Below, piece by piece: positions 2,994 to 20,040 of a stretch of 49,377 nt of DNA (positions are counted from its first letter, which is position 1; every line of letters begins with the position of its first letter). The notes under the pieces were generated by a model. It worked only from the letters and a program-made list of their open reading frames with translations, did not search any database and had not been told where the DNA came from. The stretch is taken from positions 1 through 49,377 of the forward strand of contig JAPYRI010000010.1 of NCBI GenBank assembly GCA_029941135.1, written 5' to 3'. The DNA comes from Alphaproteobacteria bacterium. GTDB lineage: Bacteria > Pseudomonadota > Alphaproteobacteria > JAPYRI01. Both the position numbers and the translations under genes were made by a program.

Positions 2994-3686
2994 TTGAAAA
3001 TATGCTTTCCCGTTCTCCCATCATTCACGACTACCTTTATTGGCGGGGCCAGTGTCAGCATTGGTTGTTTCGACGACAAACCGCCGGAGGTATGTAATTG
3101 TGAAGATGGTCGGATCGCGACTCCAGATACGATAATTCTGTTCGTAGAGTATGAAACGAGCGAGAAAGTACTCATCAAAGCGAGCATTTTCGATCTCACT
3201 CAGTGCACCGTGTCCGCCAGCCCGCCCCTTGACGAGGATGTCGGCGGCAAACAGATGTATCTGTGGCGAGCTGTTGATGGTGAGGGCGTAGTTCTCGACG
3301 TCTTGGTTCAGAAGCGCCGGAGTAAGCAGGCCGCATTGAGACTTGTGCTGAAATTGCTGAAGAACCAAAGCGTACGTCCGACACAGATCGTGACGGACAA
3401 GCTGAAGTCATATGGTATAGCGCTCCGTGACCTGGCTCTCGGCCATCTGCACGAAACCGAAAATCGTTTGAACAATCGGGTCGAGAGTTCGCACGTCCCA
3501 ATACGGCGGCGAGAGCGAAAGGTGCAGCGTTTCAAATCCCAGAAATCAGCGCAACGATTTCTCTCCACTTACGGCCCGGTCTACAATCTGTTCAACGTCC
3601 AGCGCCATCTGATCTCCCGACCCACACTCCGAACTTTCCCCGATCAGGCGACGGAGGAATGGAATATCGTAACGGCCGCAATCTAG
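2994..3686 (+). pseudogene. IS6-family transposase, N-terminally truncated
   Basis: From about base 3215 the frame matches the DDE domain of IS6/IS26-type transposases: LDEDVGGKQMYLWRAVDGEG, then VLDVLVQKRRSKQAA, IVTDKLKSYG, NNRVESSHVPIRRRERK and QRFKSQKSAQRFLS. The three acidic residues (LDE, TDK, VES) are recognisable. However, the residues between LDE and GGK are shorter than usual, and the whole N-terminal helix-turn-helix part is replaced by about 75 unrelated residues. Only the domain from about 3215 to 3686 should be called transposase. The unrelated 5' part is an accidental open frame. No terminal inverted repeats were identified. Confidence 0.75.
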
Positions 3687-3849: not shown

Positions 3850-5886
3850 GTGCAGAAACTTGGATTGATATTTGCGGCTTTTTTTTTCATCGGTGTCTTG
3901 TCGGTGAACTTGGTGTGGGCTGGTAGCGCGCAGAAAGGTTGGCGTCCTTTTCCCTTTGATATACGCGCCTCTGATCAGCGGATATTAGTGTCAGAGTTGG
4001 TGGTCGCGGCAAGCGACGACGAGCTTCTTTCTGGTGATGACGACGAGCTTCTTTCTGGTGATGACGACGAGCTTCTTTCTGGTGATGACGATGATCTGCT
4101 CACCGACGAAGATGTCCTCGACGAGCATGTGCTGACTGAGGAGGAACCAGAGGCCGCAGAACTTCCTACCGGTCAGGCACTCGATACCCATAAAGGGCTA
4201 TTTGTTGGCAATCGTTACCCGTCAGCCAACGCCTGTGCTACCTGCCACGAAAAACAATACACAGAATGGTCGGTGTCGCAGCACGCCTATGCCCAGCTTA
4301 GCCCGGTTTATATGGCGCTGCAGACCACAATCAATATTAAGACGAGTGGCACGAACGGTGATTTCTGCATTCGGTGCCACAATCAGGTGGGCATGAACCT
4401 AAAAGAATCGGTCTATATTTCAAATCTGGACCGCCCAGCCACGTCACGCGAGGGGATCACCTGCGTGGTTTGCCATCGAGTGGACCAACCCTATGGCAAG
4501 GTGAGCGGGCGCTTGGCGTTATCAGAAGGTGACCTCTTCGACGCTGTCAACGGGCCTACGGGAGGGAAGGAGCTTGAGCGAGTTATCAGTGAGCCCGAAA
4601 AATACCGTGTGGTGACCAAGCGTGACGAACCAGGCCGCGCCATTCACACCGAGGCTAATAAATTTTTCCAATTAGTGACCCCTGGGTTCTGCGGCACTTG
4701 CCATGACGTGATGCTGTCCAACGGTTTCCGACTGGAGGATGCCTTTTCCGAATATAAGGACAGTCCCGCCGCCCGAAACAAGGTATCTTGCCAGGACTGC
4801 CATATGGGCAAAGTCCAGGGCGCGAATGCCGGCTACGAATACGGGCCCGCGGCTGTCATTGGTGGTGTTCCCACCGCGACACGCCGGATTACCAACCACT
4901 TTTTCGCCGGTCCAGATTCTTCGATTGTTCACCCTGGCATATTTCCACACAATGTCCGGGCAGCCGAGTTCAAGACTTTGCGCGAGTGGCTGCAATTTGA
5001 CCATGAGGCCGGCTGGGGTACTGATAAATTTGAAGACAGTCTCGCCGACGATGTTGAATTCCCGGCATCTTGGATATCGATCGACGATCGGTACGACGCG
5101 CGGGAAATCATCACAGAACAACTGGATCGATTGAAGTGGGCGACACACCAGCGCGAGGAAGTGCTGCGCAATGGTTTTGGCCTTGGCGAAGTCGAGCTCG
5201 ACCAAGCCAATGAACGGGGTATCAAGTTTTTGGTTCCAGTGCGCAATCTGACCGACGGCCACGCCGTACCGACAGGTTTTGATGCCGAGCGAGCGATTTT
5301 TCTCGAAGTTAAAGTTCATGATCAAAGCGGCAACTTGATTTACGTCTCGGGTGATCGCGATCCCAATGGCGATCTTCGCGACGAACATTCTCTGTACGTC
5401 CACAACGGTGAGTTGCCGCTGGACCGAGATCTTTTTAGCCTTCAAAGCAAATTCCTTGTGCGGCTTTTTCGGGGCGGTGAACGAGAGCAGGTTCTGCCCA
5501 TCAATGAATCAGTTTCGGTTCTGCCCTTTGTCAGGCCAGAGCGGCGTGCGACCTCCATCTATGGCCGTCCCTTAGGTGCGCGCAAGCACAAGAGAACACT
5601 CGAGCCTTTGGGCGTGCGTTATGCCTCCTATAAAATAGACGGGGGCCTCTTGGCCGGGCCAGGTATCTATGATGTGTCGATTAAGCTCATATCCCAGAGT
5701 GTGCCAGTCAACCTTATCTCTGCTATTCAAGGGGCTGGCTTCGACTATGGCATGTCTCCCAAGGAAATCGGGGAAAGCATTGTGAGCGGTGCGGACCTAA
5801 TTGTTGAGAAGTATTTGAAAATCGATACACGTACGGGCACCGTTCGCGAAGTTGGTGTGTCTGAGTGGGGGGTGGTGACCGATTAA
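3850..5886 (+). CDS. Exported pentaheme c-type cytochrome with acidic tandem repeat
   Basis: This 678-residue protein has a signal peptide (residues 1 to about 24, ending LVWA). Five CxxCH heme sites follow: CATCH near residue 128, CIRCH near 173, CVVCH near 204, CGTCH near 280 and CQDCH near 314. The first sits in CATCHEKQYTEWSVSQHAYA, the typical entry of cytochrome c554-type multiheme domains. The C-terminal half (about 350-678) has no heme motif and looks beta-rich. Residues 56-79 are three exact copies of DDELLSGD, followed by a degenerate acidic stretch. It should act in the periplasm or outside the cell as an electron carrier or terminal reductase; no substrate can be deduced. It is first in a seven-gene operon and the porin gene follows after 46 bases. 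The start is a GTG with AGGAAA upstream. Confidence 0.85.
   Translation: MQKLGLIFAAFFFIGVLSVNLVWAGSAQKGWRPFPFDIRASDQRILVSELVVAASDDELLSGDDDELLSGDDDELLSGDDDDLLTDEDVLDEHVLTEEEPEAAELPTGQALDTHKGLFVGNRYPSANACATCHEKQYTEWSVSQHAYAQLSPVYMALQTTINIKTSGTNGDFCIRCHNQVGMNLKESVYISNLDRPATSREGITCVVCHRVDQPYGKVSGRLALSEGDLFDAVNGPTGGKELERVISEPEKYRVVTKRDEPGRAIHTEANKFFQLVTPGFCGTCHDVMLSNGFRLEDAFSEYKDSPAARNKVSCQDCHMGKVQGANAGYEYGPAAVIGGVPTATRRITNHFFAGPDSSIVHPGIFPHNVRAAEFKTLREWLQFDHEAGWGTDKFEDSLADDVEFPASWISIDDRYDAREIITEQLDRLKWATHQREEVLRNGFGLGEVELDQANERGIKFLVPVRNLTDGHAVPTGFDAERAIFLEVKVHDQSGNLIYVSGDRDPNGDLRDEHSLYVHNGELPLDRDLFSLQSKFLVRLFRGGEREQVLPINESVSVLPFVRPERRATSIYGRPLGARKHKRTLEPLGVRYASYKIDGGLLAGPGIYDVSIKLISQSVPVNLISAIQGAGFDYGMSPKEIGESIVSGADLIVEKYLKIDTRTGTVREVGVSEWGVVTD
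4015..4086 (+). repeat. Three perfect 24-bp tandem repeats encoding DDELLSGD
   Basis: Units 4015-4038, 4039-4062 and 4063-4086 are identical at the DNA level, each encoding DDELLSGD within the pentaheme cytochrome. Exact identity suggests recent expansion by slippage. Array length could vary between strains without breaking the frame. Confidence 0.9.
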
Positions 5887-5900
5887 ATCGCGCATAGAAC

Positions 5901-5914
5901 TTGATCTTTATCAA
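5901..5914. promoter_or_regulatory. Perfect FNR/FixK-type palindrome, or RNA hairpin, before the porin gene
   Basis: TTGATCTTTATCAA fits the TTGAT-N4-ATCAA consensus of FNR/Anr/FixK regulators exactly, and flanking C and G extend the dyad by one base pair. It lies 18 bases before the TTG start of the porin gene and 5 bases before its GGGAGA ribosome-binding site. That is closer than a usual activator site, so it may be a repressor site, or the transcript may form a small hairpin next to the ribosome-binding site. The sequence is seen; the role is inferred. Confidence 0.5.
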
Positions 5915-5932
5915 GACGGGAGACTTGCAAAC

Positions 5933-7306
5933 TTGACGTTACCCGTATTCACGGCGGCTGTATTGGGGCTCGCGGTTCTGATCGGCGGCGCGGGTCCGGC
6001 GGCGGCGGCCGGTAGTGCCTTGTCAAACGAACCGATACCAATGATAGACCCGGAACAGCTTCCGGAGCGCACGCCGCCAATTGAAATTGGACCCGATTTT
6101 TTGGGCGCCGGTAACATTCCCAGGGGCATTAAGTTGCCGACGGGAGCTGTGTGGACACCGGCACTTTGGGTCTTTGGAGATTTGCGCACATCTTTCAATT
6201 ACGTTGATAACGACGAGGCACCGGAAATTGCCGAATCCGCCGTCAGGCTTGATATATTTGCTAACCTCCAACTTAGCGGAACCGAACGCGTGCTTTTGGG
6301 GATGTCGCCGTTGCGTAGTGATGGCGACTTTACCAGTTATGTATTTGAGCCAGACGCCGACGAGGGTTTCAAGAACGAATTCAACGCCGATATCACGACG
6401 CTGTTTTTCGAGGGAGAATTTGGCGAAATTTTTCCCAATCTCGACATCGAAGATTCGAAATCCTTGGATATTGGTTTCGCGGTGGGTCGCCAGCCAATTT
6501 TCTTTCAAGAAGGCATGATGTTCAACGACACCATCGATTCTATAGCTTTGACCCGCGATACAGTTTCAGTCCGTAATTTTTCCCCGGATACGCGCGTGAC
6601 TGCTCTGTTTGGTTGGAATGATATAGATCGTGATGACAATCGCGAAGACCACAAGGCCATGGTCTTCGGCGTTTTTACCGAAACTGACTTTCGAAAAACC
6701 ACGACTAATTTCGATGTTGCATTGGTTACATCCAATGAACGGAATGGCGGTGATGGCTTGTTTGCTGGCGCCAGCGCAGTCCAGCGTTTGGGCCTTTGGA
6801 ATACCGCCTTTCGGGTCAATACCTCTATTGCTCTTGAGACCGAAGCGGCCTCGGTGAGCGACGGTACCCTATTATTTGGAGAAATTTCCCGGACACTTTC
6901 AAGATCGGAAGATATTGTCTACGGCAACTTTTTTTGGGCAATTAACGATTATTCCTCAGCCGCCCGTGACGCGACGACGGGTGGTCCGTTAGCGCGCACC
7001 GGGCTACTCTTCGAGTCCGTGGGGCTAGGCCAATATAGCTCGGCGCTGAGCAACCGTGCTGATAATGTTGTCGGGGGGGCTCTTGGACATCAGATTTTCT
7101 TCAACAACAACCGCACCCAACTGGTTCTGGAGTTGGGCGGGCGCAAAGGCACAAAAAAATCGACTGTTGATGCGGGGGCTGCAGGATTTCGCTTTCAACA
7201 GGCGGTGGGATCGCGCTTTGTCGTTCGTCTCGATGGATATGGGGCGATCCAAGAACATCGTGACGGAAGTATCGGTGTACGCACCGAATTTATGATTCGG
7301 ATTTGA
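5933..7306 (+). CDS. Outer-membrane beta-barrel (porin-like) partner of the cytochromes
   Basis: This 457-residue protein starts at TTG with GGGAGA upstream. An Ala/Gly-rich signal peptide ends about residue 27 (GPAAAAG). The remainder is rich in alternating hydrophobic/polar strands with aromatic ends and finishes with EFMIRI, as in beta-barrel proteins. No heme site or catalytic motif is seen. It lies between the pentaheme cytochrome and the reductase gene. By analogy with porin-cytochrome conduits, where a barrel holds a multiheme cytochrome across the outer membrane, it may sheath one of the cytochromes encoded here. It is not recognisable as MtrB by sequence and is shorter than typical MtrB (about 650-700 residues). 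A solute porin is the alternative. Confidence 0.65.
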   Translation: MTLPVFTAAVLGLAVLIGGAGPAAAAGSALSNEPIPMIDPEQLPERTPPIEIGPDFLGAGNIPRGIKLPTGAVWTPALWVFGDLRTSFNYVDNDEAPEIAESAVRLDIFANLQLSGTERVLLGMSPLRSDGDFTSYVFEPDADEGFKNEFNADITTLFFEGEFGEIFPNLDIEDSKSLDIGFAVGRQPIFFQEGMMFNDTIDSIALTRDTVSVRNFSPDTRVTALFGWNDIDRDDNREDHKAMVFGVFTETDFRKTTTNFDVALVTSNERNGGDGLFAGASAVQRLGLWNTAFRVNTSIALETEAASVSDGTLLFGEISRTLSRSEDIVYGNFFWAINDYSSAARDATTGGPLARTGLLFESVGLGQYSSALSNRADNVVGGALGHQIFFNNNRTQLVLELGGRKGTKKSTVDAGAAGFRFQQAVGSRFVVRLDGYGAIQEHRDGSIGVRTEFMIRI

Positions 7307-7347
7307 CAAGCGTAGGTGGCTGACTAACAGTAGTCCACCGACGAAAG

Positions 7348-8673
7348 ATGAATGGACTCTATCAGCATAAATTCAGTGGTTGTGTAATCGTGATGAATGT
7401 TCTCGAACTTGCCGGATGGTTCAATGTCGCCGCGGTCTTAGGGTATGCTGCGTTTACTTCCCATGGGGCTATCCAGCGCAGCCGGCTGGCAGCCAAGGGA
7501 GCGACGGTCCGCTCGAAGCTGTTCGAGCAGCAAGCCCGCATTCTATTGGACACTGAGAAAGCGGACCGCGCCCGCAACGAATTGACCTGGAGTGGCCTGC
7601 GGAAATTCTACATTGATCGTAAGGTTCTTGAAGCTGAGGACTTATGCTCTTTCTATCTCAAGGCGCACGACAGGAAGCCTCTACCTCCGTTCCTTCCAGG
7701 CCAATATCTCACGTTCCAGTTAAAGGTGTCCGACCATCTCAAGCCGATTATTCGCTGCTATTCTTTATCTGACAGCCCGACAGAAACCGATCACTACCGA
7801 GTGACCATAAAACGCATTGATGCACCGCCTAAAAATCCCGATGCGCCTCCAGGAGTTTCCTCGAATTATTTCCATAAGGAGCTTGCAGAAGGAGATATTC
7901 TGGATGTGCGCGCCCCGGGCGGCGCTTTTTATTTAAACGAGAAATCGAATCGTCCCGTGGTTCTGATTGGCGGCGGGATTGGCCTAACGCCAGTGCTGAG
8001 TATGCTCGAACAGATTTACCGTACCGGCAGCAAGAGAGAAACATGGTTCTTTTATGGTGTGCGCAACCGAAGCGAACACATTATGTATGATCGTCTGGCC
8101 GAGATCAGCAGTACACTCGAAAACGTCAACGTCGTCGTCTGCTATTCATCTCCGAATGAAGCCGACAAGATCGGACTGGACTATCAGCATAAGGGTTTCG
8201 TATCGGCCGAGCTGTTCAAGAAATTGCTGCCGTCCAACAATTACGAATTTTATATCTGTGGCCCGCCGCCGATGATGGAGATGATAACCCAGGACCTCAG
8301 TGATTGGGGAGTTCCGGAGGAAGATATCAATTTTGAAGCCTTTGGCCCCGCCACAATCAAAAGTACGAACCCGCTGGTCAGTGAAGAGGGTGCGGAAACT
8401 GTACCCAGTGAAGCCGATGAGGTTGATGTCGTCTTTGAGCATTCGAAAAAAACGCTGCGCTGGTCAACGAACAGTGGCTCGATATTGGAGTTGGCGGAAA
8501 ACAACGGTATCGCCTTAGATTTTGGCTGTCGTGCCGGAAATTGTGGCACCTGTACGACGGCTATTCTGGAAGGGAAGGTTACTTATTTGAATACTCCAGG
8601 CGCTCCCCCGAAAGAGGGGACATGCCTAGCATGTATAGCTGTTCCGGACGGACGCCTGGTGATTGACGGATAA
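7348..8673 (+). CDS. Membrane-anchored FAD/NAD(P)-dependent ferredoxin-type reductase
   Basis: This 441-residue protein has an N-terminal hydrophobic segment (about residues 15-35). A ferredoxin-reductase-like FAD domain follows (about 80-190) with RCYSLSDSP, the R-x-Y-S flavin motif. The NAD(P)-binding domain (about 200-325) has IGGGIGLTPVLSML and YICGPPPMM. A C-terminal plant-type 2Fe-2S domain (about 350-441) has cysteines spaced C-x4-C-x2-C (CRAGNCGTC), with the fourth in CLAC. This is the order of Hcr and phenol-hydroxylase-type reductases with C-terminal ferredoxin. It should take electrons from NAD(P)H, or deliver them to NAD, on the cytoplasmic face. Within the operon it is the only obvious nicotinamide-linked component. 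ATG 7393 is a possible later start, but it lacks a ribosome-binding site. Confidence 0.85.
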   Translation: MNGLYQHKFSGCVIVMNVLELAGWFNVAAVLGYAAFTSHGAIQRSRLAAKGATVRSKLFEQQARILLDTEKADRARNELTWSGLRKFYIDRKVLEAEDLCSFYLKAHDRKPLPPFLPGQYLTFQLKVSDHLKPIIRCYSLSDSPTETDHYRVTIKRIDAPPKNPDAPPGVSSNYFHKELAEGDILDVRAPGGAFYLNEKSNRPVVLIGGGIGLTPVLSMLEQIYRTGSKRETWFFYGVRNRSEHIMYDRLAEISSTLENVNVVVCYSSPNEADKIGLDYQHKGFVSAELFKKLLPSNNYEFYICGPPPMMEMITQDLSDWGVPEEDINFEAFGPATIKSTNPLVSEEGAETVPSEADEVDVVFEHSKKTLRWSTNSGSILELAENNGIALDFGCRAGNCGTCTTAILEGKVTYLNTPGAPPKEGTCLACIAVPDGRLVIDG

Positions 8674-8725
8674 GAATTATGGGATGCTAGGCCATCCCAA
8701 GCTTGAATGGCCGAAAGAAGGAAAT

Positions 8726-9748
8726 ATGATTTTTAGAATCTCACCAAATTTATCCAGCCTGCTGATTGGCTGCATGCTTGTGCTGGCGATTTCGTTTGCG
8801 ACACCGTCGCGGGCCGAGACTGAACAAGATCATACTGAGATCGTTGGGCCCAATGCTTGTGGCGAGTGCCACAAGAAAACTGTAGCTGTGTGGCAGAAGA
8901 GCCACCACTTCTCGACATTTAAAGAACTGCCTCGCCGAAAGGAGGCGATTGAGATTGCCAAGAAGATGGGGTTGAAACGCATCAAGGCAGGCAGTCTTTG
9001 TCTGGACTGTCACTTCACGACCGCCGAAGCAAGCGGCGGCAAGCGAAAAGCCATTGCGGGCGTTTCTTGCGAATCCTGCCACGGTCCGGCTAAAGGATAT
9101 GTCAAACGGCACGGAGAATTCAGCGGCAAGAAGAAGGAATCAGAGACCGAGGCAGAAGCGCTCCAACGCTGGGCAGATTCCGACGCCGCCGGCATGATCC
9201 GGCCCGGCGACATGTATGCCTTGGCCAAGAATTGTTACGACTGCCACACTGTACCCCAGGAGAAGCTGGTGAACACCGGCGGCCACACGGCGGGCAGCAA
9301 GTTTGAATTGGTATCCTGGTCCCAGGGAGAAGTGCGCCACAACGTTTGGTATAACGGCGGAAAAGGTAATGCTGAGGCCAGTGCAGAGCACAAACGGGTG
9401 ATGTTCGTTGTCGGATTGGCGGTGGAACTAGAGACTTCGATTAGGGCTGTCGGAAACGCGACCGTAAAGGCCGACTATGCAGTGGCTATGGCTAAGCGTG
9501 CGGGCCGTGCCAAGGCACGCTTTCGCAAGATTGCTGATGTCTTGCCGATCCCAGAAATTGGTCAGATCAACCTGGCGGCAAATTCAGTCAAATTGAAGCT
9601 GAACAATAAGGATAAACTTAGCAAAGCTGCGGCCAAGATTGCAGCGGCTGCTAACGCAATCTCGGACAATTATGATGGTTCAACATTCGGCGCGGTCGAC
9701 GGCATGATTCCTCCAGCGTCGAAATACAAGGGAATGGCAGATCAGTAG
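8726..9748 (+). CDS. Tetraheme cytochrome c554-type protein
   Basis: This 340-residue protein starts at an ATG preceded by AAAGAAGGA. A signal peptide ends near residue 28 (TPSRA). Four CxxCH sites are present: CGECH (about 45), CLDCH (about 92), CESCH (about 115) and CYDCH (about 171). The pattern CGECHKKTVAVWQKSHH and the later CESCHGPAKGYVKRH are typical of the cytochrome c554 / multiheme c family. The last 170 residues are heme-free and predicted helical, rich in Ala and Lys. It is likely a periplasmic electron shuttle between the inner-membrane components encoded downstream and the outer-membrane barrel. The upstream reductase stops 52 bases before this start, consistent with an operon. 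Hydroxylamine oxidation, where c554 is classically found, is not supported because no HAO-type octaheme protein is present. Confidence 0.85.
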   Translation: MIFRISPNLSSLLIGCMLVLAISFATPSRAETEQDHTEIVGPNACGECHKKTVAVWQKSHHFSTFKELPRRKEAIEIAKKMGLKRIKAGSLCLDCHFTTAEASGGKRKAIAGVSCESCHGPAKGYVKRHGEFSGKKKESETEAEALQRWADSDAAGMIRPGDMYALAKNCYDCHTVPQEKLVNTGGHTAGSKFELVSWSQGEVRHNVWYNGGKGNAEASAEHKRVMFVVGLAVELETSIRAVGNATVKADYAVAMAKRAGRAKARFRKIADVLPIPEIGQINLAANSVKLKLNNKDKLSKAAAKIAAAANAISDNYDGSTFGAVDGMIPPASKYKGMADQ

Positions 9749-9840
9749 CGCCCGCGGTGCTGGCGATGATGCTTCACCGTCAATGGCGGTGAGAGCTCCG
9801 TTCGGGTTGGCATTAACATCAGAAATTATGGAGGAAAGGT

Positions 9841-11544
9841 TTGAATTCCTCGCCTAACATAAATAGTCCAGAGCGTTGGGATCGACCCTTCGGCCCGGAC
9901 ATGACCGAAAATGATGTTGATCGCGCCCTGGAATTCTCAGCCCTCGGTGCCGTAGATCCGAACTTGTTCCCGAAAAACCGACCGCTGCGGGAGATCATTA
10001 AGAATGATGGTCGCATCGTCCATTATAAACGTGGCGATATTATTATCCGCAATGGCGACTATGGCAATTCCGTTTTTCTAATATTACAGGGCTGTGTCCG
10101 GATCGTCATCAATGAGCCCAGAGAGCAGCACCGACCTAAGAAAGGCAGGCGTTCATTCTTTCGCGCCGTCAGCCAGCTCTGGCGAAATGCGACGGTACCT
10201 GAGCGGCGAGACGTTTCGATCTACGAAAATAGCGCCTCTAAAATCCGACGCGGCGAGGTAACCAGCGCCCAAGTTCATCTCACCGATGTCTCGGGATATA
10301 TCGCGACCCATGAAACTATACAGCTGGCTGAGGGGACGAGCTTTGGCGAGATAGCCGCCCTGTCGCGCACGCCGCGCACGGCGACGGTCTTTGCCGAAAC
10401 CGAGCTTGAGCTGCTGGAGTTGCGATGGCAGGGGTTGCGCGATATTCGCCGTCGGGACGCTGGTATTAGAGAGACCTTCAACCAGCACTATCGCAAAAAT
10501 CGGCTGGAGGCCCAATTGCGTAGCTCGCCACTTTTGGCCCACCTCGATACGGAAAGCCTGGGTGAGATTATCAAGCACACCCTGCTCGAGATGTATGGCT
10601 CCGAAGATTGGTTTTACGCCTACATGAAGATCGAAGCGCGGGAGTCGAGTGATGTCATCGCTGCAGAGCCCGTGATTATCGAGCAGCATTCTTATCTTGA
10701 TGGACTTTTGCTGATTTGCTCGGGTCACGCCCGCTTGAGCGAGGGGCTCGACCATGGCGAGCGAACCGTCGGCTACTTAAAATCTAATGATGCATTTGGC
10801 CTGGAAGAGATCATGGACCAGTGGCGCAACGGTACAGAGCTTCTGGCCCAGCGCAGTTTGCGTGCCGTCGGTCATGTAGAGGTCTTACGCATCCCGACAG
10901 CCTTGGTTGAAAAACACATTTTGCCCTCGTTGCCTGCGAGTCTGCTGCCCGAACTGAAAAACGCCGACAACGTTTTAGCCTGGGATGCCGATAGCCAGGA
11001 GAAAGGCCTCGAGCAATCTCTACTTGATTTTTTCACCGACCAGCGGATCATCAATGGGACCGAGACCATGATGATAAATACCGCGCGATGCACGGGCTGC
11101 GATGATTGTGTTCGGGCTTGCGCCGCAACCCATGACAACAACCCTCGTTTCATCCGCCATGGGCCGGTCCATGGCAACATACAAGTCGCCAATTCCTGTA
11201 TGCATTGTGCCGATCCGGTCTGCTTGGTCGAATGTCCGACCGGTGCCATCGGCCAGAGTGTCATAGACGGCCGCGTGATGATTGATGACCCTCTTTGCAT
11301 TGGTTGCGGTAACTGTGCCAATTCCTGTCCCTACAACAATATCCAGCTGGTCGAGGTCAGAAACCGGTCCGGTGATTTCATCATTGATACGGAAACTAGC
11401 GCACCAATCGTCAAGGCCACTAAATGCGACCTTTGCTTCGGTCAGCTCGGCGGGCCTGCCTGCCAACGTGCTTGTCCCCACGATGCACTTGTCCGTATGG
11501 ATCTTCACAACATGGATGAGGTATTAGGGTGGATAGGTAAATAG
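9841..11544 (+). CDS. Fusion of two cNMP-binding domains with a four-cluster 4Fe-4S ferredoxin module
   Basis: This 567-residue protein starts at TTG with a strong GGAGGAAAG site. Cyclic-nucleotide-binding domain 1 (about 45-215) has RGDIIIRNGDYGNSVFLILQ and the phosphate-cassette-like GTSFGEIAALSRTPRTATV. An insertion of about 55 basic residues separates its two halves. A second, more diverged cNMP-type domain lies about 235-375. The C-terminal 170 residues carry sixteen cysteines in four sets like DmsB/HybA iron-sulfur subunits: CTGCDDCVRAC, CMHCADPVCLVEC, CIGCGNCANSC and CDLC...CQRAC. There is no signal peptide or helix-turn-helix, so it is a cytoplasmic electron-transfer protein and not a transcription factor. 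It probably docks on the adjacent cytochrome-b-like protein, with electron flow perhaps gated by a cyclic nucleotide. Whether ligand binding is retained is unknown. Confidence 0.85.
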   Translation: MNSSPNINSPERWDRPFGPDMTENDVDRALEFSALGAVDPNLFPKNRPLREIIKNDGRIVHYKRGDIIIRNGDYGNSVFLILQGCVRIVINEPREQHRPKKGRRSFFRAVSQLWRNATVPERRDVSIYENSASKIRRGEVTSAQVHLTDVSGYIATHETIQLAEGTSFGEIAALSRTPRTATVFAETELELLELRWQGLRDIRRRDAGIRETFNQHYRKNRLEAQLRSSPLLAHLDTESLGEIIKHTLLEMYGSEDWFYAYMKIEARESSDVIAAEPVIIEQHSYLDGLLLICSGHARLSEGLDHGERTVGYLKSNDAFGLEEIMDQWRNGTELLAQRSLRAVGHVEVLRIPTALVEKHILPSLPASLLPELKNADNVLAWDADSQEKGLEQSLLDFFTDQRIINGTETMMINTARCTGCDDCVRACAATHDNNPRFIRHGPVHGNIQVANSCMHCADPVCLVECPTGAIGQSVIDGRVMIDDPLCIGCGNCANSCPYNNIQLVEVRNRSGDFIIDTETSAPIVKATKCDLCFGQLGGPACQRACPHDALVRMDLHNMDEVLGWIGK

Positions 11545-12365
11545 TGACTTTCGCATCTCGCCGCTTTGGCGCCCTTTGTCTGTCAATTGTCCTGGCCGCT
11601 GGTCTGATCTGGCTCGCAATGGCATATGACCTGACACTCCGCGATGCCAGCTACTTAACAGGGTGGCTGCTGTTCGGCGGTGTTGTGCTGGCGTCAACAT
11701 TCAATATGCGTAAGAAACTACCGTTTTTGCCGCTTTTGAATGCGTCGATTTGGCTGCAGATTCATATCTACATCGGTTGGCTATTGGTGGTGCTATTTTT
11801 TTTGCATACCTCCCTCGAATGGCCGCTTGGGTGGTTTGAGGGGGTGTTGTGGTTTCTCTTTGTATTGGTCTCCCTGAGTGGATTAATCGGCCTCTTTCTG
11901 TCACGCAGTTTGCCAGTGCGCATTCAGAACCACGGTGAACGCTTGATCTTCGAGCGCATCCCGCAATTCCGCGCTGAACTCGCCGACGAGGTCGAGGTTC
12001 TGGCTACACGTTCGGTGCGCGAGACAGCTTCTAATACCATTGCCCTCTATTACGTCAATCGCCTGCAGGCCTATTTCAGTGGACCAAAAAACCTTGTCGC
12101 ACATTTACTTGAATCCCGAGCGGCTTTGACCAAGCACCGTCGGGAAATCGACTCTCTTGAGCGCTACCTCCAAGAGGATGGGCGAGAGATACTGGCGAAT
12201 ATCAAAGACCTTATCGTCGCAAAAGATAATCTGGATTATCAGTACTCTCTGCAACTCGTACTCAGGCTGTGGCTTTTTGTTCATATTCCGCTGACTTATG
12301 CGCTGCTGCTCGTCGCCCTCGTACATATCGTTCTGACCTATGCCTTCTCGGGGGCGACCTTGTAA
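11544..12365 (+). CDS. Cytochrome-b-like inner-membrane protein
   Basis: This 273-residue protein starts at a GTG sharing one base with the previous stop (TAGTG), so translation is coupled. Hydrophobic helices lie about 8-28, 38-52, 70-92 and 98-118, then a charged, helical soluble loop (about 120-235), and a last pair at 240-270. Histidines sit inside or next to helices: IHIYIGW, FFLHTSLEW, FVHIPLTY and LVHIVLTY. These could ligate two b hemes as in NapH/NrfD/cyt-b561-like quinol-reactive subunits. No family is confidently recognised. Position between the ferredoxin-type protein and the decaheme cytochrome suggests it links the quinone pool or the cytoplasmic 4Fe-4S protein with periplasmic hemes. 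Confidence 0.7.
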   Translation: MTFASRRFGALCLSIVLAAGLIWLAMAYDLTLRDASYLTGWLLFGGVVLASTFNMRKKLPFLPLLNASIWLQIHIYIGWLLVVLFFLHTSLEWPLGWFEGVLWFLFVLVSLSGLIGLFLSRSLPVRIQNHGERLIFERIPQFRAELADEVEVLATRSVRETASNTIALYYVNRLQAYFSGPKNLVAHLLESRAALTKHRREIDSLERYLQEDGREILANIKDLIVAKDNLDYQYSLQLVLRLWLFVHIPLTYALLLVALVHIVLTYAFSGATL

Positions 12366-14737
12366 TGCGATTGCTTCAATTTTTTGATTTCAGGTCAAGC
12401 ACCTACGAGCGGCCCAATCAGAACTGGGTCTGCGGAAATTTGGCCTCGGGCAAACCGTGTCGAATCGGTCCGGGGGTAAATGGTCGCTGCCGTGCAAGCG
12501 TAGAATGCGCACCGATGAAGGCAGGGGGTCGATGGACCTGTACCCGGCCGCCCAGTGCAGGTGGGCAGTGCGAGAATGGGCCTCTACCCGACGGCACCTG
12601 TTGCTTGACTATTCCGAAATGTGCCCCTACGCGCAGTCTTCGGTCGAAACGCGGTCGTGTGGTTATCGGTACGATGATCCTGACCGTGGGATTTTTGATG
12701 TTGAGTCTGTTCGGCACTGCTCGCGACAAGATTTTGTCACCGGGACCGGTGACTATGAGTCACGGCGAAGTTGGGGGGTGTGTTAATTGTCATCAAGGGT
12801 TAGATCATGGAGTAGATCAGTGGGTAGGCACAGCCCTTACGTCCGGACAGGACATGGGCGATGCCAAGCAATGTTTGAGCTGCCATGAATTCGGCGAGAA
12901 TTCTTTTTCCGCACATAACCTTGCCCCAGATGCTCTGGCAGAGGCGTCTCAGCGGCTTTCTCTTTCCCAGACTACGGCCCCAGAACCTTTGAAAATTAAG
13001 CTGGCGGGGCTGCTCTTCGATTCCCCTCAAAAGGTGGGCAGCAAGTTGGCGTGCGCGACTTGTCACAAGGAACACAAAGGCGTTTACCAGGACCTGAAGG
13101 CAATGAGCAATGGGCGCTGTCAATCCTGCCACAGCGCTCAATTTACTAGCTTTTCAAACGGCCATCCGAGCTTCGAGGACTATCCCTATAAGCAACGTAC
13201 TCGGATTGTTTTCGATCACGGAGCCCACTTCAATCGTCATTTCGATAAAGCAGGTCTGGAGAAAGCGCCTACCGTATGTACAAGCTGCCACATCCCCGAC
13301 GTCAATGGCAGATCGATACTACTACGCGGCTTTGATGAGACATGCTCGGGCTGCCATTTAGAGCAAATCGAAGGGATCAGTCGGATAGGAGGCAAGGGAA
13401 TCGCCTTCCTGGGAGTACCCGGATTCGACGTGGCCTCGCTGCGGGACCAAGGCGTTGAGGTTGGCGAGTGGCCGGAACTGGCGGAAGAGCCAATGACTCC
13501 ATTTCTGGAAGTGCTATTGAGTCAGGACCCGGCTTTGGCCGCGGACCTCGCGAGGATATCAACCCTTGACCATCTTGATCTTTCCAACGCCGACGCCGGT
13601 GATCTGGCTGCGGTGGGAAGAATCGTCTGGGGAGTAAAGATACTGTTCCACGAATTGTTGGTGCAAGGTCCTGCCGCAATTGCCGCCAAGCTGTCGAAGG
13701 GCTTTGATCAAAATTTGAGTAAGCAGAGCCTAAGCCAGTTGGTGGCCAGTTTGCCATTGGACGTGATCCGCAGTGCCCAGGAAAGTTGGTTCCCCGACCT
13801 CTTCACCGAAGTTGCAATCCATAACTTGGGGGGCCTGCTTTCTCTGCGCGAACAGACATCTGAGGTCGACGCGGTGGCGGCAGAGGCCGGGCAGGATACC
13901 GCTCCAGGAACCTCGGATGGTGATGACTCAATTTTGGGTGATGACCTGATTTTGGGTGATGATTCAATACTGGGAGACAACACAATTCTGGATGATGATG
14001 ATGAGATTTTTTCCAACGGGGAGAATATTCTGACTGAAGACGAAAAGCCCCTTTCAGGCGACGCAGAAACTCTGCCAGAGGATTTGGGCGGCGAGAACAG
14101 TGAAAGCCTGTGGATTGCAGCGAAGCTTTTGGCTGATGAGCAGTCCAAAATTGACCAGGAAACATGGGCTAGATTGGGCGGCTGGTACCGGGAGGAGTAC
14201 AGCTTAGTCTACAGGCCGGTCGGCCACGCTGATGCCTTTTTGCGGGCTTGGATCGACTTGGGCGCCCAAAGTGAAGGCGGCACAGCGGCGGCGGGCCGGG
14301 CCATCTTTGACCAACTCGCTCACAAAGACGCCCCTGGAAAATGCGTCAAGTGTCACAGCGTTGAAACAGTCCCCAATGGTGGACTGCAGATGATGTGGAC
14401 TGCGGCGCGCTCGGACCCGGAGTTTAAAAAGGCGACGGTTTTCGCCCATACCGCCCATTTTAGCATGATGGACGAGGATGGCTGCCTAACCTGTCATAAG
14501 GTGGAGCCCAAGGCCGACTATGCGGCGTCTTATGCAGATACCAATCCGCACAGCTTTACCTCGAATTTCGCGCCGTTGGGCATCAAGACTTGCGCCGCCT
14601 GTCACCAAGAAAACCTGGCGGGCGATAACTGCCAGCAGTGCCACCAATACCACGTCGGCCGTTTTGTGGCCCAGTCGGTTGCTACGGATTGGTCTGAAGA
14701 CACATCGACTGGTGTTCCACAAGAACTGAACGAATAA
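12365..14737 (+). CDS. Membrane-anchored decaheme c-type cytochrome
   Basis: This 790-residue protein starts at an ATG overlapping the previous stop (TAATG). Residues 1-95 are a non-exported, cysteine-rich segment with nine cysteines (VCG, KPC, GRC, VEC, WTC, GQC, GTCC, PKC). A transmembrane helix follows at about 98-118. Ten CxxCH motifs come next in two groups. Six lie between about residues 138 and 330 (CVNCH, CLSCH, CATCH, CQSCH, CTSCH, CSGCH). Four lie between about 659 and 760 (CVKCH, CLTCH, CAACH, CQQCH). Between the groups is a 300-residue heme-free stretch containing acidic hexapeptide repeats at 519-542. The topology puts a Cys-rich domain in the cytoplasm and ten hemes in the periplasm, suitable for carrying electrons from the preceding membrane protein outward. 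It is last in the operon. Confidence 0.85.
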   Translation: MRLLQFFDFRSSTYERPNQNWVCGNLASGKPCRIGPGVNGRCRASVECAPMKAGGRWTCTRPPSAGGQCENGPLPDGTCCLTIPKCAPTRSLRSKRGRVVIGTMILTVGFLMLSLFGTARDKILSPGPVTMSHGEVGGCVNCHQGLDHGVDQWVGTALTSGQDMGDAKQCLSCHEFGENSFSAHNLAPDALAEASQRLSLSQTTAPEPLKIKLAGLLFDSPQKVGSKLACATCHKEHKGVYQDLKAMSNGRCQSCHSAQFTSFSNGHPSFEDYPYKQRTRIVFDHGAHFNRHFDKAGLEKAPTVCTSCHIPDVNGRSILLRGFDETCSGCHLEQIEGISRIGGKGIAFLGVPGFDVASLRDQGVEVGEWPELAEEPMTPFLEVLLSQDPALAADLARISTLDHLDLSNADAGDLAAVGRIVWGVKILFHELLVQGPAAIAAKLSKGFDQNLSKQSLSQLVASLPLDVIRSAQESWFPDLFTEVAIHNLGGLLSLREQTSEVDAVAAEAGQDTAPGTSDGDDSILGDDLILGDDSILGDNTILDDDDEIFSNGENILTEDEKPLSGDAETLPEDLGGENSESLWIAAKLLADEQSKIDQETWARLGGWYREEYSLVYRPVGHADAFLRAWIDLGAQSEGGTAAAGRAIFDQLAHKDAPGKCVKCHSVETVPNGGLQMMWTAARSDPEFKKATVFAHTAHFSMMDEDGCLTCHKVEPKADYAASYADTNPHSFTSNFAPLGIKTCAACHQENLAGDNCQQCHQYHVGRFVAQSVATDWSEDTSTGVPQELNE
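13919..13990 (+). repeat. Four acidic hexapeptide repeats (GDDSIL type) in the decaheme cytochrome
   Basis: Four 18-base units encode GDDSIL, GDDLIL, GDDSIL and GDNTIL, then run into a DDDDEIF tail. The DDx[IL]L core is shared with the DDELLSGD repeats of the first cytochrome of the operon, although the period differs (6 versus 8 residues). Confidence 0.85.
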
Positions 14738-15541: not shown

Positions 15542-18361
15542 TCAGGGCGACGGGAGAGAAGTATCGACCCCTGCATATACGCCGACGGCAGCATAATTAG
15601 CAGCGCTATCAAGAACGGTGAACTGACCTCCGGTATTTTCGGCATTTGGTCCGAAGAAAGTGCCGCTCGCGGTAAGCTGTCGCCCTCCGTCAAGAGCACT
15701 AACGAGATAATTTGTTGCGCTCGCGGGCCTAGTCGCCGAATTAAGACCTGTTACATTAGTTCCGTCAAAACTAAAATCGAAATTTGTGACGTCATAACCG
15801 CCCTGGACAAATGTCACATCCATACTGACGCCCCCGGTTGCTGTCGCAACATAAAATTCTCCAGCATTAGAAACATTTCCTATTATGTCTCCTGCATAGG
15901 ATATAACGCCCGACTGGGGGAAAGTTCCGACGGGAGTCAACTGACCCGCGACCCAATTGCCCAGTCCGGCGGAAAATTCCTCAATCGGGGCCCCGACGGC
16001 CACTTCGTTCTTCATGGCGACGCCCCAGAACCCCCAAGACATGAATGCACAAGTGCACAAGTCAAAAGATTCGCCATTCACAATGGTATTTGAACCGGTG
16101 ATCAGGTACCCTTCGCCTTTCGTGGTGGCGATACTATTTACACTTGCTGTTTTAAGTGTCGCCGCGAAATCGTTGTCATCGATAAACGCTGAAATCGAAT
16201 CGGCTGTCGTGCTGGCCGAAATTACATCACCGTTTCCAATAAAATCTTTGAGATTGAGGGTCACCGTGACTGTGTCGGCCACAGGATCTAGAGTGATTGT
16301 ACTGGTACCACTCTGGGACCCAGCACTATAAATACTCCCAAGTTGTGCAGGTATTTGCCCGTTACTGAATCGTCCAAGACCGGTAGCGAAGGCCGAAAGG
16401 CTTGTTGCCGAAAGGCCTGTCAATGACCGAACCGGCGCCAATGACGCTTTAACTGGCGTCGCAATGTTGACCGGAAAATATGGATCGGTGCCCTCTCCCA
16501 ATCCCGACGCGAAAGTGAAAATACCGGGCCCAGGAGACGGATTAGAATCCGGGGTAGGATCAATTCCGAGGACAAAATAATTGGGTGCCGCGGCACCGAA
16601 AAAATCGTTGAGGCCACCGGCAACCGTGCCATTTGTTCCGACGCTATCGAACTCTCCCAGTTTGGCAGAGGGCAGGCCAGCAGTTGGGTCAACAATGCCG
16701 ATGAATTCTCCGGCAATAGATTGCGCGGACGTTACGCCTCCGCTTGCAGCTAGGGATACCCGGCCTATATGGGTGCTCAGTGCGAGCGATTTGCTAGCGC
16801 TGTCAATAACGATGGTGCTGGATAAGAAGGGTTTCGATGTCGTATTGGCGCTTCCCCAAAAAATGTGCGCGGGCCGCGCTTGGTTACTACTCTGGAACCC
16901 GGTGTCCGAGGTCCGAAGAAATGGAATATCTGACTCGAGAAACGGGTCCGGCACCAAATTATATGTCTGCACGCCACCGGCTGGGATTTGACCGACATAA
17001 GGCGTTCCTGCCAGCACTAATTCTCTCGATCCATCCGCAAGGGTAATCAAATAATTGAAGAATTCACGGTTGGCATCAAAAGTGATCACCCGGCCTTCAT
17101 TGCCGGCGCTTCCCGGAAACTGAATTGTAACCGCCGCTTGATTGATGTCATGACCGACTGTGCACGTCAAATCGGCCGGACACGCGAGATTATTTGCCGG
17201 AAAGTAAAGCACGTAAGGGCCTATGGGCGCTGTTACCGAGAGTTTCCCTTCTCTCGTCGCATGGTCCAAGCTTTTGACATCAGCCCGCGTAAATTGGCGG
17301 GCCACGAACGCCGCATTCGTTGAGTTAATATTGGCGCCGCTCGCATTAGGCGTGGTGCCGCTTCTCAGGGCCGCCCCATCCAGCGTCGCAACCACAGGAG
17401 CCCCACCGAGAGTATTCTCATCTATCTCTTTTGTAGTGATCTCTTGCGACGCATCTTGAACTTCATTCTCGACCATTTCCCCAGTTTCTGCGGTCATCGA
17501 ATCCGGGTTGCCGGTGCTATCCCCTGTGTCGGTTTCACCGGTAACCTGGCTGTCACTGTAATTGTCTGACAACGCGGAAGCATTGGCATTTATGCTATTC
17601 CGTTGCCTCCTATCCGACCGACCCCTTCGATCGCTTTCGGGGGCAGCCGCGCCACTGCTGGCAGTACCCGCACTCCCCTCGAATTGGGATGACTTAATTC
17701 CGAGGGAAGCCTCATTCACTGGCTGTGGATCTGACAGTCCACCGGCGGTCGAGGCGGTTATGTTGGTTCCCGCCTTTTTGGTTATTTCGGTGTCACCTAG
17801 GAGGGTCATACTCATACTGTCGCCAAACAGGAAGTCCCCACTAATGCTATCTGAGCTGACCTCAATAATTGCAATTCCACCTCGAATACCAATTGTTCCT
17901 GAGGACGACTGAAACTCAACTTCCCCATTTTTGCTAATTTTTCCACCGACGAAGCGAAAAACTCCTTTGGTTGCCCGAACAATGATTTTGCCAGTCCCGA
18001 CGTCGGGGTCGTAAACAAATTCATCAAGAATCATATTCGAATTCGGGCCCACAGTAATTGCGGATCCATCCAAAAATAGTAGTTGCGCTATATCCGCTTC
18101 ATTAGTCGTAATTTGTTCTTGGTGGACGACATTTGTTCCGACGATAAGCTGACGACGCACGCTTACTGGAGGTTGTCCAACCGGAGTTCTTTGCGTACCC
18201 CACGTCACACCGATTTCGGTTTCTTCTTCAGCAGCGAAGCTATTTCCGCCCGGTATCAAGAGCGTAAATACTAGCGACAAAGCAAAAAATAAACGTATTC
18301 GCCGAAGGTAAATAGGCCTATTGGACATATCCTCGGGTTTCCATTGGCTGAATATTTTCAT
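15542..18361 (-). CDS. Large exported FecR-domain protein with C-terminal barrel-like domain
   Basis: This 939-residue protein has a basic N-terminus and hydrophobic core ending NSFAAEEE (signal cleavage about residue 44). No lipobox cysteine is present. A FecR-type domain follows (about 70-180), with RRQLIVGTNVVHQEQITT, LLFLDGSAITVGPNSNMILD and FRFVGGKISKNGEVEF. A low-complexity Ser/Asp/Glu region lies about 230-340, then a long beta-rich region. Near residue 785 is CTCAFMSWGFWG. The end has a glycine-rich barrel-like part with GTFFGPNAENTGGQFTV, resembling the closing strands of TbpB-type beta-barrel domains. It is probably a surface or secreted protein whose exporter is the adjacent TPR-barrel protein. 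AAGGTG precedes the chosen ATG; ATG 18328 is an alternative. It is the second gene of a two-gene unit (13-base gap). Confidence 0.75.
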   Translation of the reverse strand: MKIFSQWKPEDMSNRPIYLRRIRLFFALSLVFTLLIPGGNSFAAEEETEIGVTWGTQRTPVGQPPVSVRRQLIVGTNVVHQEQITTNEADIAQLLFLDGSAITVGPNSNMILDEFVYDPDVGTGKIIVRATKGVFRFVGGKISKNGEVEFQSSSGTIGIRGGIAIIEVSSDSISGDFLFGDSMSMTLLGDTEITKKAGTNITASTAGGLSDPQPVNEASLGIKSSQFEGSAGTASSGAAAPESDRRGRSDRRQRNSINANASALSDNYSDSQVTGETDTGDSTGNPDSMTAETGEMVENEVQDASQEITTKEIDENTLGGAPVVATLDGAALRSGTTPNASGANINSTNAAFVARQFTRADVKSLDHATREGKLSVTAPIGPYVLYFPANNLACPADLTCTVGHDINQAAVTIQFPGSAGNEGRVITFDANREFFNYLITLADGSRELVLAGTPYVGQIPAGGVQTYNLVPDPFLESDIPFLRTSDTGFQSSNQARPAHIFWGSANTTSKPFLSSTIVIDSASKSLALSTHIGRVSLAASGGVTSAQSIAGEFIGIVDPTAGLPSAKLGEFDSVGTNGTVAGGLNDFFGAAAPNYFVLGIDPTPDSNPSPGPGIFTFASGLGEGTDPYFPVNIATPVKASLAPVRSLTGLSATSLSAFATGLGRFSNGQIPAQLGSIYSAGSQSGTSTITLDPVADTVTVTLNLKDFIGNGDVISASTTADSISAFIDDNDFAATLKTASVNSIATTKGEGYLITGSNTIVNGESFDLCTCAFMSWGFWGVAMKNEVAVGAPIEEFSAGLGNWVAGQLTPVGTFPQSGVISYAGDIIGNVSNAGEFYVATATGGVSMDVTFVQGGYDVTNFDFSFDGTNVTGLNSATRPASATNYLVSALDGGRQLTASGTFFGPNAENTGGQFTVLDSAANYAAVGVYAGVDTSLPSP

Positions 18362-18374
18362 TCTACACCTTAAA

Positions 18375-19739
18375 TCAGAAAATCCAGAGCGCGCCGACGG
18401 TAATCGCTGTGTCGTCGTATTCGAAATTGGGTAAATTGGATCCGATATCCCGGTACTGACCGGTCGTTACCAAAGTAAGTCTGTCAATTAGAGGAACGCT
18501 AACTTGAAGCGAAATTCTCTTCTCCCGATCCTGGCGCGTCACACCTGGATCGATTATTGCGTCTGGTTCGTCGTAATCTGTGAGGACGTAAGCGCCAGTG
18601 AGGTTCAGATACCAAGGTCCGCGGGTAATTTGGAAAGGCGGGTTGATACCTCGTTGGACGCCAAACGACACGTCATACTCCCAATTAGCGCTTGAGGCGA
18701 GATCAGTGTTTTCGCGTTCGACCTCGCCACCCAATGTGAGCTGGGTTCGTTTACCCAGGGCGTACCGGAACGTCAATAAACCACCGCTACGCACACCATT
18801 CTGAGTACTCGCATTCGGGCTCCCAGAATTATCATTGTAATTACGATCAATCACTTTCACGTCCAGGTCGGCGGACAACCGGCTACCTAAGCCCGACGAT
18901 AAGAGTACTCCACCGCCAAAACTTTGGTAGTACCTGTCGGAATGTAAAGCCATCCAATCGGTTACGAAGTAGGGTCTTATAGCGATACGGGTTAAAAACA
19001 TTCCGGCAATACTGGTGTCGCTGATATTTAGCGAAAGCCGGGGCCCGGCTCTCAAAACGAATAACGCTATGTTGACTTGAGTCTCGTCTTTTTGTTCGGA
19101 ACCATAAAAGGAAAGGTCGGTATCGAACGATGTGTCGTTTTCCATTTTGAAATCGAAGCTATAATTTACTCGTCCGGCAAGAAAGCCAGAGAAATCGTCC
19201 TGCTCCGTAAATTGATCATCCAGCGTCGCGTCGAACCCTAAAACTCGAATTCGGGACGACCCAGGGCCCGCGTTTGCATTGGTTTGATAGCGAGCACCAG
19301 CATACAACATGCCACTGAAACGATGTCGCGACTGGCGACGGTCAATTTCCCTGATAAACTTTTTGACCCGTTCCATCACCTCCGGCGGCACGTTCTCATT
19401 TTCTGCGACAGCATTCAGATACGATCGAGACATCGCATAAGAACCCAGCCGAAAATAAAGGACACCGAGTTCAAGTCGCACGCGGGGTAAATCTTTATCA
19501 TACAAAAGCATGCGTTCGAGAGCGCCGATAGCCGCTTCGAAGTCGCCTACCGCTATGGCGAGCCGGGCGAAATCGAATGTAGTATCCAGGTCCCCGGGAT
19601 CCGCGTACATAGCGTCGAACATTGCCCGGTAACGGCTTTCAACCGAATCTTCGCTTTGTTGCGCATCGACCGTATTTCCGAAATTCAGTATGAACGTAAT
19701 TAGCAGAACGCCCAAAACCGTTCCGCGAATTTTTTGCAT
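18375..19739 (-). CDS. TPR plus outer-membrane beta-barrel protein, Slam-like
   Basis: This 454-residue protein uses the ATG at 19739, since GGGGA lies 8 bases upstream and a good signal peptide follows (KIRGTVLGVLLITFILNFGN...VDAQQ). An upstream ATG at 19796 would put 19 non-hydrophobic residues in front. Residues about 35-140 form TPR-like helical hairpins (FARLAIAVGDFEAAIGALER, LELGVLYFRLGSYAMSRSYL). From about 150 to the end the sequence alternates like a 14-16-stranded barrel and finishes with an aromatic residue (VGALWIF), as for BAM substrates. TPR followed by barrel is the layout of Slam (DUF560) surface-protein exporters of type XI secretion. The FecR-domain gene 13 bases downstream is the likely cargo. 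Family assignment is by architecture, so moderate. Confidence 0.65.
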   Translation of the reverse strand: MQKIRGTVLGVLLITFILNFGNTVDAQQSEDSVESRYRAMFDAMYADPGDLDTTFDFARLAIAVGDFEAAIGALERMLLYDKDLPRVRLELGVLYFRLGSYAMSRSYLNAVAENENVPPEVMERVKKFIREIDRRQSRHRFSGMLYAGARYQTNANAGPGSSRIRVLGFDATLDDQFTEQDDFSGFLAGRVNYSFDFKMENDTSFDTDLSFYGSEQKDETQVNIALFVLRAGPRLSLNISDTSIAGMFLTRIAIRPYFVTDWMALHSDRYYQSFGGGVLLSSGLGSRLSADLDVKVIDRNYNDNSGSPNASTQNGVRSGGLLTFRYALGKRTQLTLGGEVERENTDLASSANWEYDVSFGVQRGINPPFQITRGPWYLNLTGAYVLTDYDEPDAIIDPGVTRQDREKRISLQVSVPLIDRLTLVTTGQYRDIGSNLPNFEYDDTAITVGALWIF

Positions 19740-20040
19740 TTCAAATTGTCCCCACAGCTCCCCGAAACAAACCCCTATCAATTTGGCAACGTACACACCC
19801 TCTCACTAGGATTAAAGATAATTTATTTCAACTATGTGTGAATTTGAAATTTAACAATCATCAGAGATGCCGGCAATAATTGGCCTTGTGACAATCATCT
19901 TCAGACGGATTGTTATATTCAGACTGATTGTGTCGATCAGGCATAAGATAGGCGAGCACATTGGCTAGTGCTCGATTGCGCGAACCAATTAGCTTCCGAC
20001 ACGAGAACGCAATAAGAGAGGGTTTTCTGAAACGATAAAA
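19740..20040. promoter_or_regulatory. AT-rich intergenic region before the Slam-like gene
   Basis: These 301 bases between the cyclase stop and the Slam-like gene are clearly AT-rich around 19805-19925, as expected for a promoter of the leftward Slam/FecR pair. TGTGACAATCATC near 19887 resembles half of a CRP-type site but lacks the second arm. No small gene was recognised. Confidence 0.35.

Follow-up and report, generated by a model that had tools for sequence, protein, structure and literature searches.

A seven-gene multiheme cytochrome operon of PCC4 type that may connect NAD(P)H to the outer membrane

Detailed knowledge of porin-cytochrome conduits comes from a few metal-respiring bacteria. 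In those of the MtrCAB, MtoAB or PioAB type, a porin and multiheme cytochromes join the inner membrane to the outside, and MtrCAB-type conduits start from a CymA-type quinol oxidase. A different set of proteins is encoded by the Geobacter extHIJKLMNOPQS cluster with its porin ExtI and cytochromes of five (ExtKL), four (ExtS) and ten hemes (ExtN). A third group, PCC4, comes from one genome survey that described, on the basis of sequence alone, a putative complex of a porin, three cytochromes (4, 5, and 10 hemes), an Fe-S protein, other redox proteins, and an inner-membrane protein (IMP) with an SGXXG motif, two WX3HX13H motifs, and five predicted transmembrane helices (He et al. 2017, PMC5566968). 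Its occurrence in Fe(II)-oxidising and possibly Mn(II)-oxidising niches was the basis for a model in which electrons enter the quinone pool (PMC5566968). We found no experiments on any PCC4 complex in the open-licence literature, where one later paper mentions PCC4, once.

The stretch of DNA that we analysed (the window) is one whole contig of 49,377 bp from a draft genome of 3.02 Mb in 178 contigs. At 3850-14737, it carries seven open reading frames (g1 to g7) that all lie on the plus strand and are not distinct from their surroundings in GC content. They encode a secreted pentaheme cytochrome c with a C-terminal beta domain (g1, 3850-5886), a predicted outer-membrane beta-barrel of about 18 strands (g2, 5933-7306), a membrane-anchored FAD/NAD(P) reductase with a C-terminal [2Fe-2S] site (g3, 7348-8673), a periplasmic tetraheme cytochrome c of the c554 type (g4, 8726-9748), a cytoplasmic protein with two cyclic-nucleotide-binding-like (cNMP) domains and four [4Fe-4S] sites (g5, 9841-11544), an inner-membrane diheme cytochrome b that corresponds to the PCC4 IMP (g6, 11544-12365), and an inner-membrane-anchored decaheme cytochrome c with a Cys-rich N-terminus and linker repeats (g7, 12365-14737). 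The seven same-strand genes, the barrel, the FAD/2Fe-2S reductase, and the four-cluster ferredoxin fused to cNMP domains had all been recognised in a first-pass annotation, as had the nineteen CxxCH motifs, which we counted as 5+4+10 in g1, g4, and g7 and which are kept across alignments of 51-106 homologues. The protein that had been called histidine-rich is indeed a membrane protein, but with exactly four invariant histidines it is better described as a diheme cytochrome b. Similarly, the overlaps of one base between g5 and g6 (TAGTG) and between g6 and g7 (TAATG) are real, but one between g3 and g4 is probably not: the longest reading frame of g4 begins at 8663, while its start is most likely the ATG at 8726, which follows a Shine-Dalgarno-like AAGAAGG, would yield a normal signal peptide, and leaves g4 without overlap with g3. 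For g7, the most likely start is 12365, at the TAATG overlap, rather than the 12269 of the longest reading frame.

Judged by its genes and motifs, the operon is almost certainly a member of PCC4. It shares with subgroup II, whose carriers are mostly marine Alpha-, Gamma-, and Zetaproteobacteria and Planctomycetes, the porin gene beside a cytochrome gene (g2 adjoins g1), the heme set of 4, 5, and 10 (g4, g1, and g7), the SGXXG and two WX3HX13H motifs as invariant columns of g6, the pfam13247 gene directly upstream of the IMP gene (g5 before g6), and a redox gene upstream of the tetraheme gene (g3 directly before g4). The initial idea of a new trans-envelope electron pathway thus survives as to the envelope, which is part of our best reading, but not as to novelty because this gene set was already described as PCC4 in 2017. 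For the same reason, it no longer holds that no known system has this exact set, except in the sense that the published description contains no experiment. What we add are the cNMP domains on the Fe-S protein, front ends of NAD(P) type, ligand counts, a barrel model, the presence of PCC4 in genomes of 11 phylum labels, and an inner end that seems to be coupled to NAD(P)H and not to quinone.

Other described systems are more distant. Family models for an MtrB/MtrA-like pair, a molybdoenzyme, a nitrite reductase, or HAO have no match above cut-off in the set, as the first-pass annotation had proposed. Compared to MtrCAB-type conduits, the operon lacks any MtrB_PioB, MtrA/DmsE, or OmcB-type protein above cut-off (g2 has no MtrB_PioB match, and g7 scores 24.2 bits against a DmsE-family cut-off of 192.2), its barrel of about 18 strands contrasts with the 28 motifs given for MtrB, and its front end is a flavoprotein/Fe-S chain. 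The Geobacter ext cluster resembles it in that the porin adjoins the pentaheme cytochrome and that a tetraheme cytochrome, a decaheme cytochrome, a cytochrome b, and an Fe-S protein are found in one cluster. However, that cluster has a rhodanese, a dodecaheme cytochrome, and a cytochrome b of Rieske/bc type but neither a cNMP-ferredoxin nor an FAD reductase, and the ExtKL-type pentaheme model (NF040886) has no match in the window's genome (g1 scores 28.7 bits, cut-off 250). We also rejected a nitrite reductase, HAO, or c554-enzyme, given that g4 has four spare invariant histidines for four hemes and that the enzyme models score far below their cut-offs, as well as the Manganitrophaceae PCC_1 cluster, which uses dodecaheme cytochromes.

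The seven genes are strongly co-conserved, whereas a lack of co-conservation would have spoken against the first-pass annotation. In a survey of 385 genomes of the class, g1 was found in 30 and g5 of the window's type in 25, with 22 genomes carrying both, three only g5, eight only g1, and 352 neither (Fisher p ~3e-26, uncorrected for phylogeny). In two of the three genomes with only g5, the gene lies on very short contigs (4.9 and 6.0 kb), and in the third it belongs to a variant cluster. Of the eight with only g1, seven have another type of cNMP-ferredoxin that reached the search threshold, and the eighth (G104) has this type beside g1 (L088). A contig scan with g5 alone as the query recovered no relatives; a g1 profile did, and searching species genomes yielded no fewer than 516 relatives of g1, of which we fetched the best 80. 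All seven genes are present in 41 of 113 stretches, which include many cut by contig ends and a few near-duplicates, and they occur in at least four gene orders. Since the same seven families are clustered in other genomes, the arrangement is not due to chance. In the g1 tree, the window's g1 groups with Rhodospirillales metagenome-assembled genomes (MAGs), and the tree as a whole spans 11 phylum labels, which for MAGs can be wrong. Beyond an ABC ATPase, no other specific gene family recurs beside the operon. Individual loci deviate from this picture: one genome (G286) has two clusters (L074 and L077), one of them with a g1 that diverges strongly (end branch of 1.14 in the g1 tree); a Verrucomicrobiales MAG has a tandem duplicate of g1 (L173); and in genome G343 a g3-g7 cluster without g1 and g2 (L180) adjoins a reading frame for a CRP-like regulator and one of 537 aa with four CxxCH, perhaps a different outer partner.

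At the inner end of the putative chain, g3 has the Pfam domains NAD_binding_1, FAD_binding_6, and Fer2, a single hydrophobic helix (residues 13-31), and conserved cysteines at 394, 399, 402, and 429. The g5 protein matches the cNMP_binding and Fer4 families (PF13247 at 29.4 bits, cut-off 26.2), and its alignment has 16 conserved cysteines, sufficient for four [4Fe-4S] clusters; its first cNMP domain has kept the phosphate-binding motif, with R179 in 52 of 56 sequences. For g6, family searches gave matches to DUF4405 and cytochrome b561, both sub-threshold. Its four invariant histidines (74, 88, 247, and 261) lie in the invariant motifs W70-x3-H74-x13-H88 and W243-x3-H247-x13-H261, accompanied by S112-G113-x2-G116, and a simple hydropathy scan, which may miss a weaker fifth segment, found four strong hydrophobic ones at 8-26, 69-87, 101-119, and 242-260.

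The front end occurs in three variants. In the first, as in the window, it is g3. In the second, a Pyr_redox FAD/NAD(P) domain is fused to the N-terminus of the cNMP-ferredoxin, and the decaheme cytochrome carries an FHA domain. A third variant in Acidobacteriota, Bacteroidota, and Myxococcota (L123, L128, L149, L151, L152, L119) has a g4 of double length with mostly eight hemes, a shorter g5, and, downstream of g7, an FHA protein and a separate Pyr_redox flavoprotein. That different flavoproteins of pyridine-nucleotide type would serve the same chain of Fe-S protein, cytochrome b, and decaheme cytochrome is the strongest sequence evidence for NAD(P)(H) as the inner partner, which we consider probable. 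The module of the second variant (a Pyr_redox-cNMP-ferredoxin of ca. 800 aa, cytochrome b, and FHA-decaheme; L034, L035, L036, L037, L088, L091, L092, L184-L189) is found with g1-g2 or without them, then often beside a large decaheme protein and a signal-peptide protein of 580-610 aa that is possibly a barrel. Its decaheme cytochrome looks like a ten-heme "Forkhead-associated protein" family reported from Gallionellaceae iron oxidisers (n = 27; PMC10734462, Table 1).

Our main reading, to which we assign a probability of roughly 60%, is that the operon encodes a porin-cytochrome wire of PCC4 type that draws electrons from NAD(P)(H) in the cytoplasm and carries them outward to the outer membrane under control of a cyclic nucleotide. 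From gene content, co-conservation, conserved ligands, and the barrel prediction, we infer that NAD(P)H would reduce the FAD and [2Fe-2S] of g3, from where electrons would pass to the four [4Fe-4S] clusters of g5 and then across the inner membrane through the two b hemes of g6, where a quinone branch may exist. They would continue over the ten c hemes of g7, anchored in the inner membrane, to g4 as a tetraheme shuttle and on to g1, whose five hemes would sit at or inside the barrel g2 and deliver them to an acceptor on or beyond the outer membrane. Binding of a cyclic nucleotide by g5 probably gates this flow, which could serve to dispose of electrons or to reduce Fe(III), Mn(IV), or similar acceptors outside the cell. 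As to direction, we lean towards outward flow because electrons from NAD(P)H would run down both the redox gradient and the membrane potential on their way out, whereas those from Fe(II) or Mn(II) would have to climb both to reach NAD(P)+, and the seven-gene set contains no pump. The lack of a RuBisCO link argues in the same direction: no RuBisCO turned up in the genome of the window, and across the class it is not associated with the operon (3/30 vs 30/355, p 0.73). Nor was an association with NosZ seen (p 0.28).

The main rival is electron uptake into the quinone pool, in which outside Fe(II) or Mn(II) would be oxidised at g1/g2 and the electrons would run through g4, g7, and g6 to the quinones, with g5 and g3 perhaps passing a share to NAD(P)+. 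This is the published PCC4 model, which proposes the opposite direction and a different inner partner based on the niches of the carriers (PMC5566968), and the Zetaproteobacteria among these carriers (PMC5566968) count against outward flow as metal oxidisers. The same is true for other carriers that are, or resemble, metal oxidisers, namely relatives of Hyphomicrobium and, by its name, "Bacterium MnTg02", whose g1 (L129) sits among those of Hyphomicrobiales. We nevertheless regard uptake as unlikely given that an NAD(P)-type flavoprotein is present in all three variants, that any share for NAD(P)+ would have to be driven uphill by a set without a pump, that RuBisCO shows no link in the class, and that the carriers include Nisaea, Thalassobaculum, and Roseibium, which are heterotrophs.

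To judge whether the cytochromes could form a wire, we counted conserved ligands in alignments of 50-106 homologues per gene. Besides its five CxxCH, g1 has six other histidines that are conserved at 98-100% (114, 145, 266, 350, 361 [98%], and 471); g4 has exactly four other invariant histidines for its four CxxCH and g7 exactly ten, conserved at 94-100%, for its ten. Every heme could therefore be bis-His, since a conserved histidine is available as its candidate distal ligand. This agrees with a wire and not with an enzyme that has an open catalytic heme. In Pfam and NCBIfam, g1 and g4 match multiheme cytochromes of c554/c3 type (Cytochrome_C554 for g4, E 2.6e-17) and g7 those of c7/c3 type. 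The g1 protein has a signal helix at residues 4-22, and its gene always adjoins that of the barrel. Its structure model (pLDDT 79.3) has one clear match in the PDB (5ZE8, with E 4.7e-13 and TM 0.69 on the target), which is the pentaheme c552 of Thermochromatium tepidum. A sequence search also points to this cytochrome, which shares with g1 the five-heme domain followed by a C-terminal beta domain but only 18% identity. In g7, a single helix (99-117) is preceded by a domain with eight conserved cysteines that is presumably cytoplasmic. No Pfam or NCBIfam family matches g2, which AlphaFold2 predicts from a 44-sequence alignment as a beta-barrel (mean pLDDT 85.3, pTM 0.80). Taken as a whole, the system is very likely a conduit across the envelope.

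Two points about its outer end do not favour the outward wire: no extracellular cytochrome is evident, and the best Foldseek matches of g2 in the PDB are Campylobacter MOMP, AlgE, and Occ channels, so that the barrel resembles substrate-selective channels. The latter supports a second rival in which g2 would admit a soluble oxidised compound such as an oxyanion that g1 or g4 would reduce in the periplasm, drawing on NAD(P)H, without any wire through the outer membrane. A precedent may be the Geobacter porin ExtI, which is encoded beside a pentaheme cytochrome and affects the reduction of selenite and tellurite but not of Fe(III) citrate. However, with conserved histidines for all hemes no spare open heme is apparent for such a reductase, and g1 at 28.7 bits is far from the ExtKL cut-off of 250, so that we consider this explanation quite improbable.

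Weakest is an assimilatory metal reductase that would reduce external Fe(III) for iron uptake like a eukaryotic NAD(P)H-flavin-diheme b FRE/NOX chain stretched over two membranes, a very improbable reading that agrees with the cofactor order of g3 and g6, with the HX13H pairs common to g6 and the ferric reductase domain, and with the direction of NAD(P)H input but not with the lack of recurrent iron-uptake genes beside the operon or with Fur-like and Irr-like sites that are not above expectation upstream of 118 operon starts. At the same starts, there was no convincing excess of FNR, NNR, CRP, or ArcA sites either; near-perfect FNR sites numbered 5 against 1.3 expected and were scattered.

If the wire takes NAD(P)H as its input and is gated by a second messenger, ordinary marine bacteria would possess a regulated means of exchanging electrons with their surroundings. 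A tentative, and possible, generalisation is that PCC4 throughout acts as a cNMP-gated NAD(P)H oxidase across both membranes rather than in quinone-linked metal oxidation. Mostly aerobic bacteria from some ten phyla would use it to export electrons, with flavoprotein front ends that can replace one another and with control by cNMP or FHA domains. The carriers include cultured strains of Nisaea, Thalassobaculum, Tistlia, Roseibium, and Sulfidibacter, in which our reading of PCC4 is directly testable.

The linkers of g1 and g7 share a short acidic repeat. Between signal peptide and first heme, g1 has four copies of DD[ED]LL, and the broader pattern DD-x-[LI]L begins at residues 56, 64, 72, and 80 of g1 (residues 56-84, about 4015-4101) and at 520, 526, and 532 in the long linker of g7 (residues 520-536, about 13922-13972), with no occurrence in the other five proteins of the operon. 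There are 87 matches in 86 linkers of g1 homologues versus 5.8 expected when each linker is shuffled and 21 in 49 linkers of g7 versus 4.3, for a pattern picked after viewing the window's sequence and linkers that are related rather than independent. As a guess, the repeat might serve in docking to a partner common to g1 and g7. The pattern is also found in homologues from Planctomycetota, Verrucomicrobiota, and Gammaproteobacteria.

Just downstream of the operon, the minus strand encodes a FecR-domain protein, a TPR/barrel-like protein, and a CHASE2-adenylate/guanylate cyclase in a row (15542-22500); the cyclase is a possible local source of cyclic nucleotide and is not conserved with the operon. 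Upstream, reading frames at 2994-3686 and 228-560 resemble, by eye, an IS6-type transposase and an IS30-type fragment, respectively.
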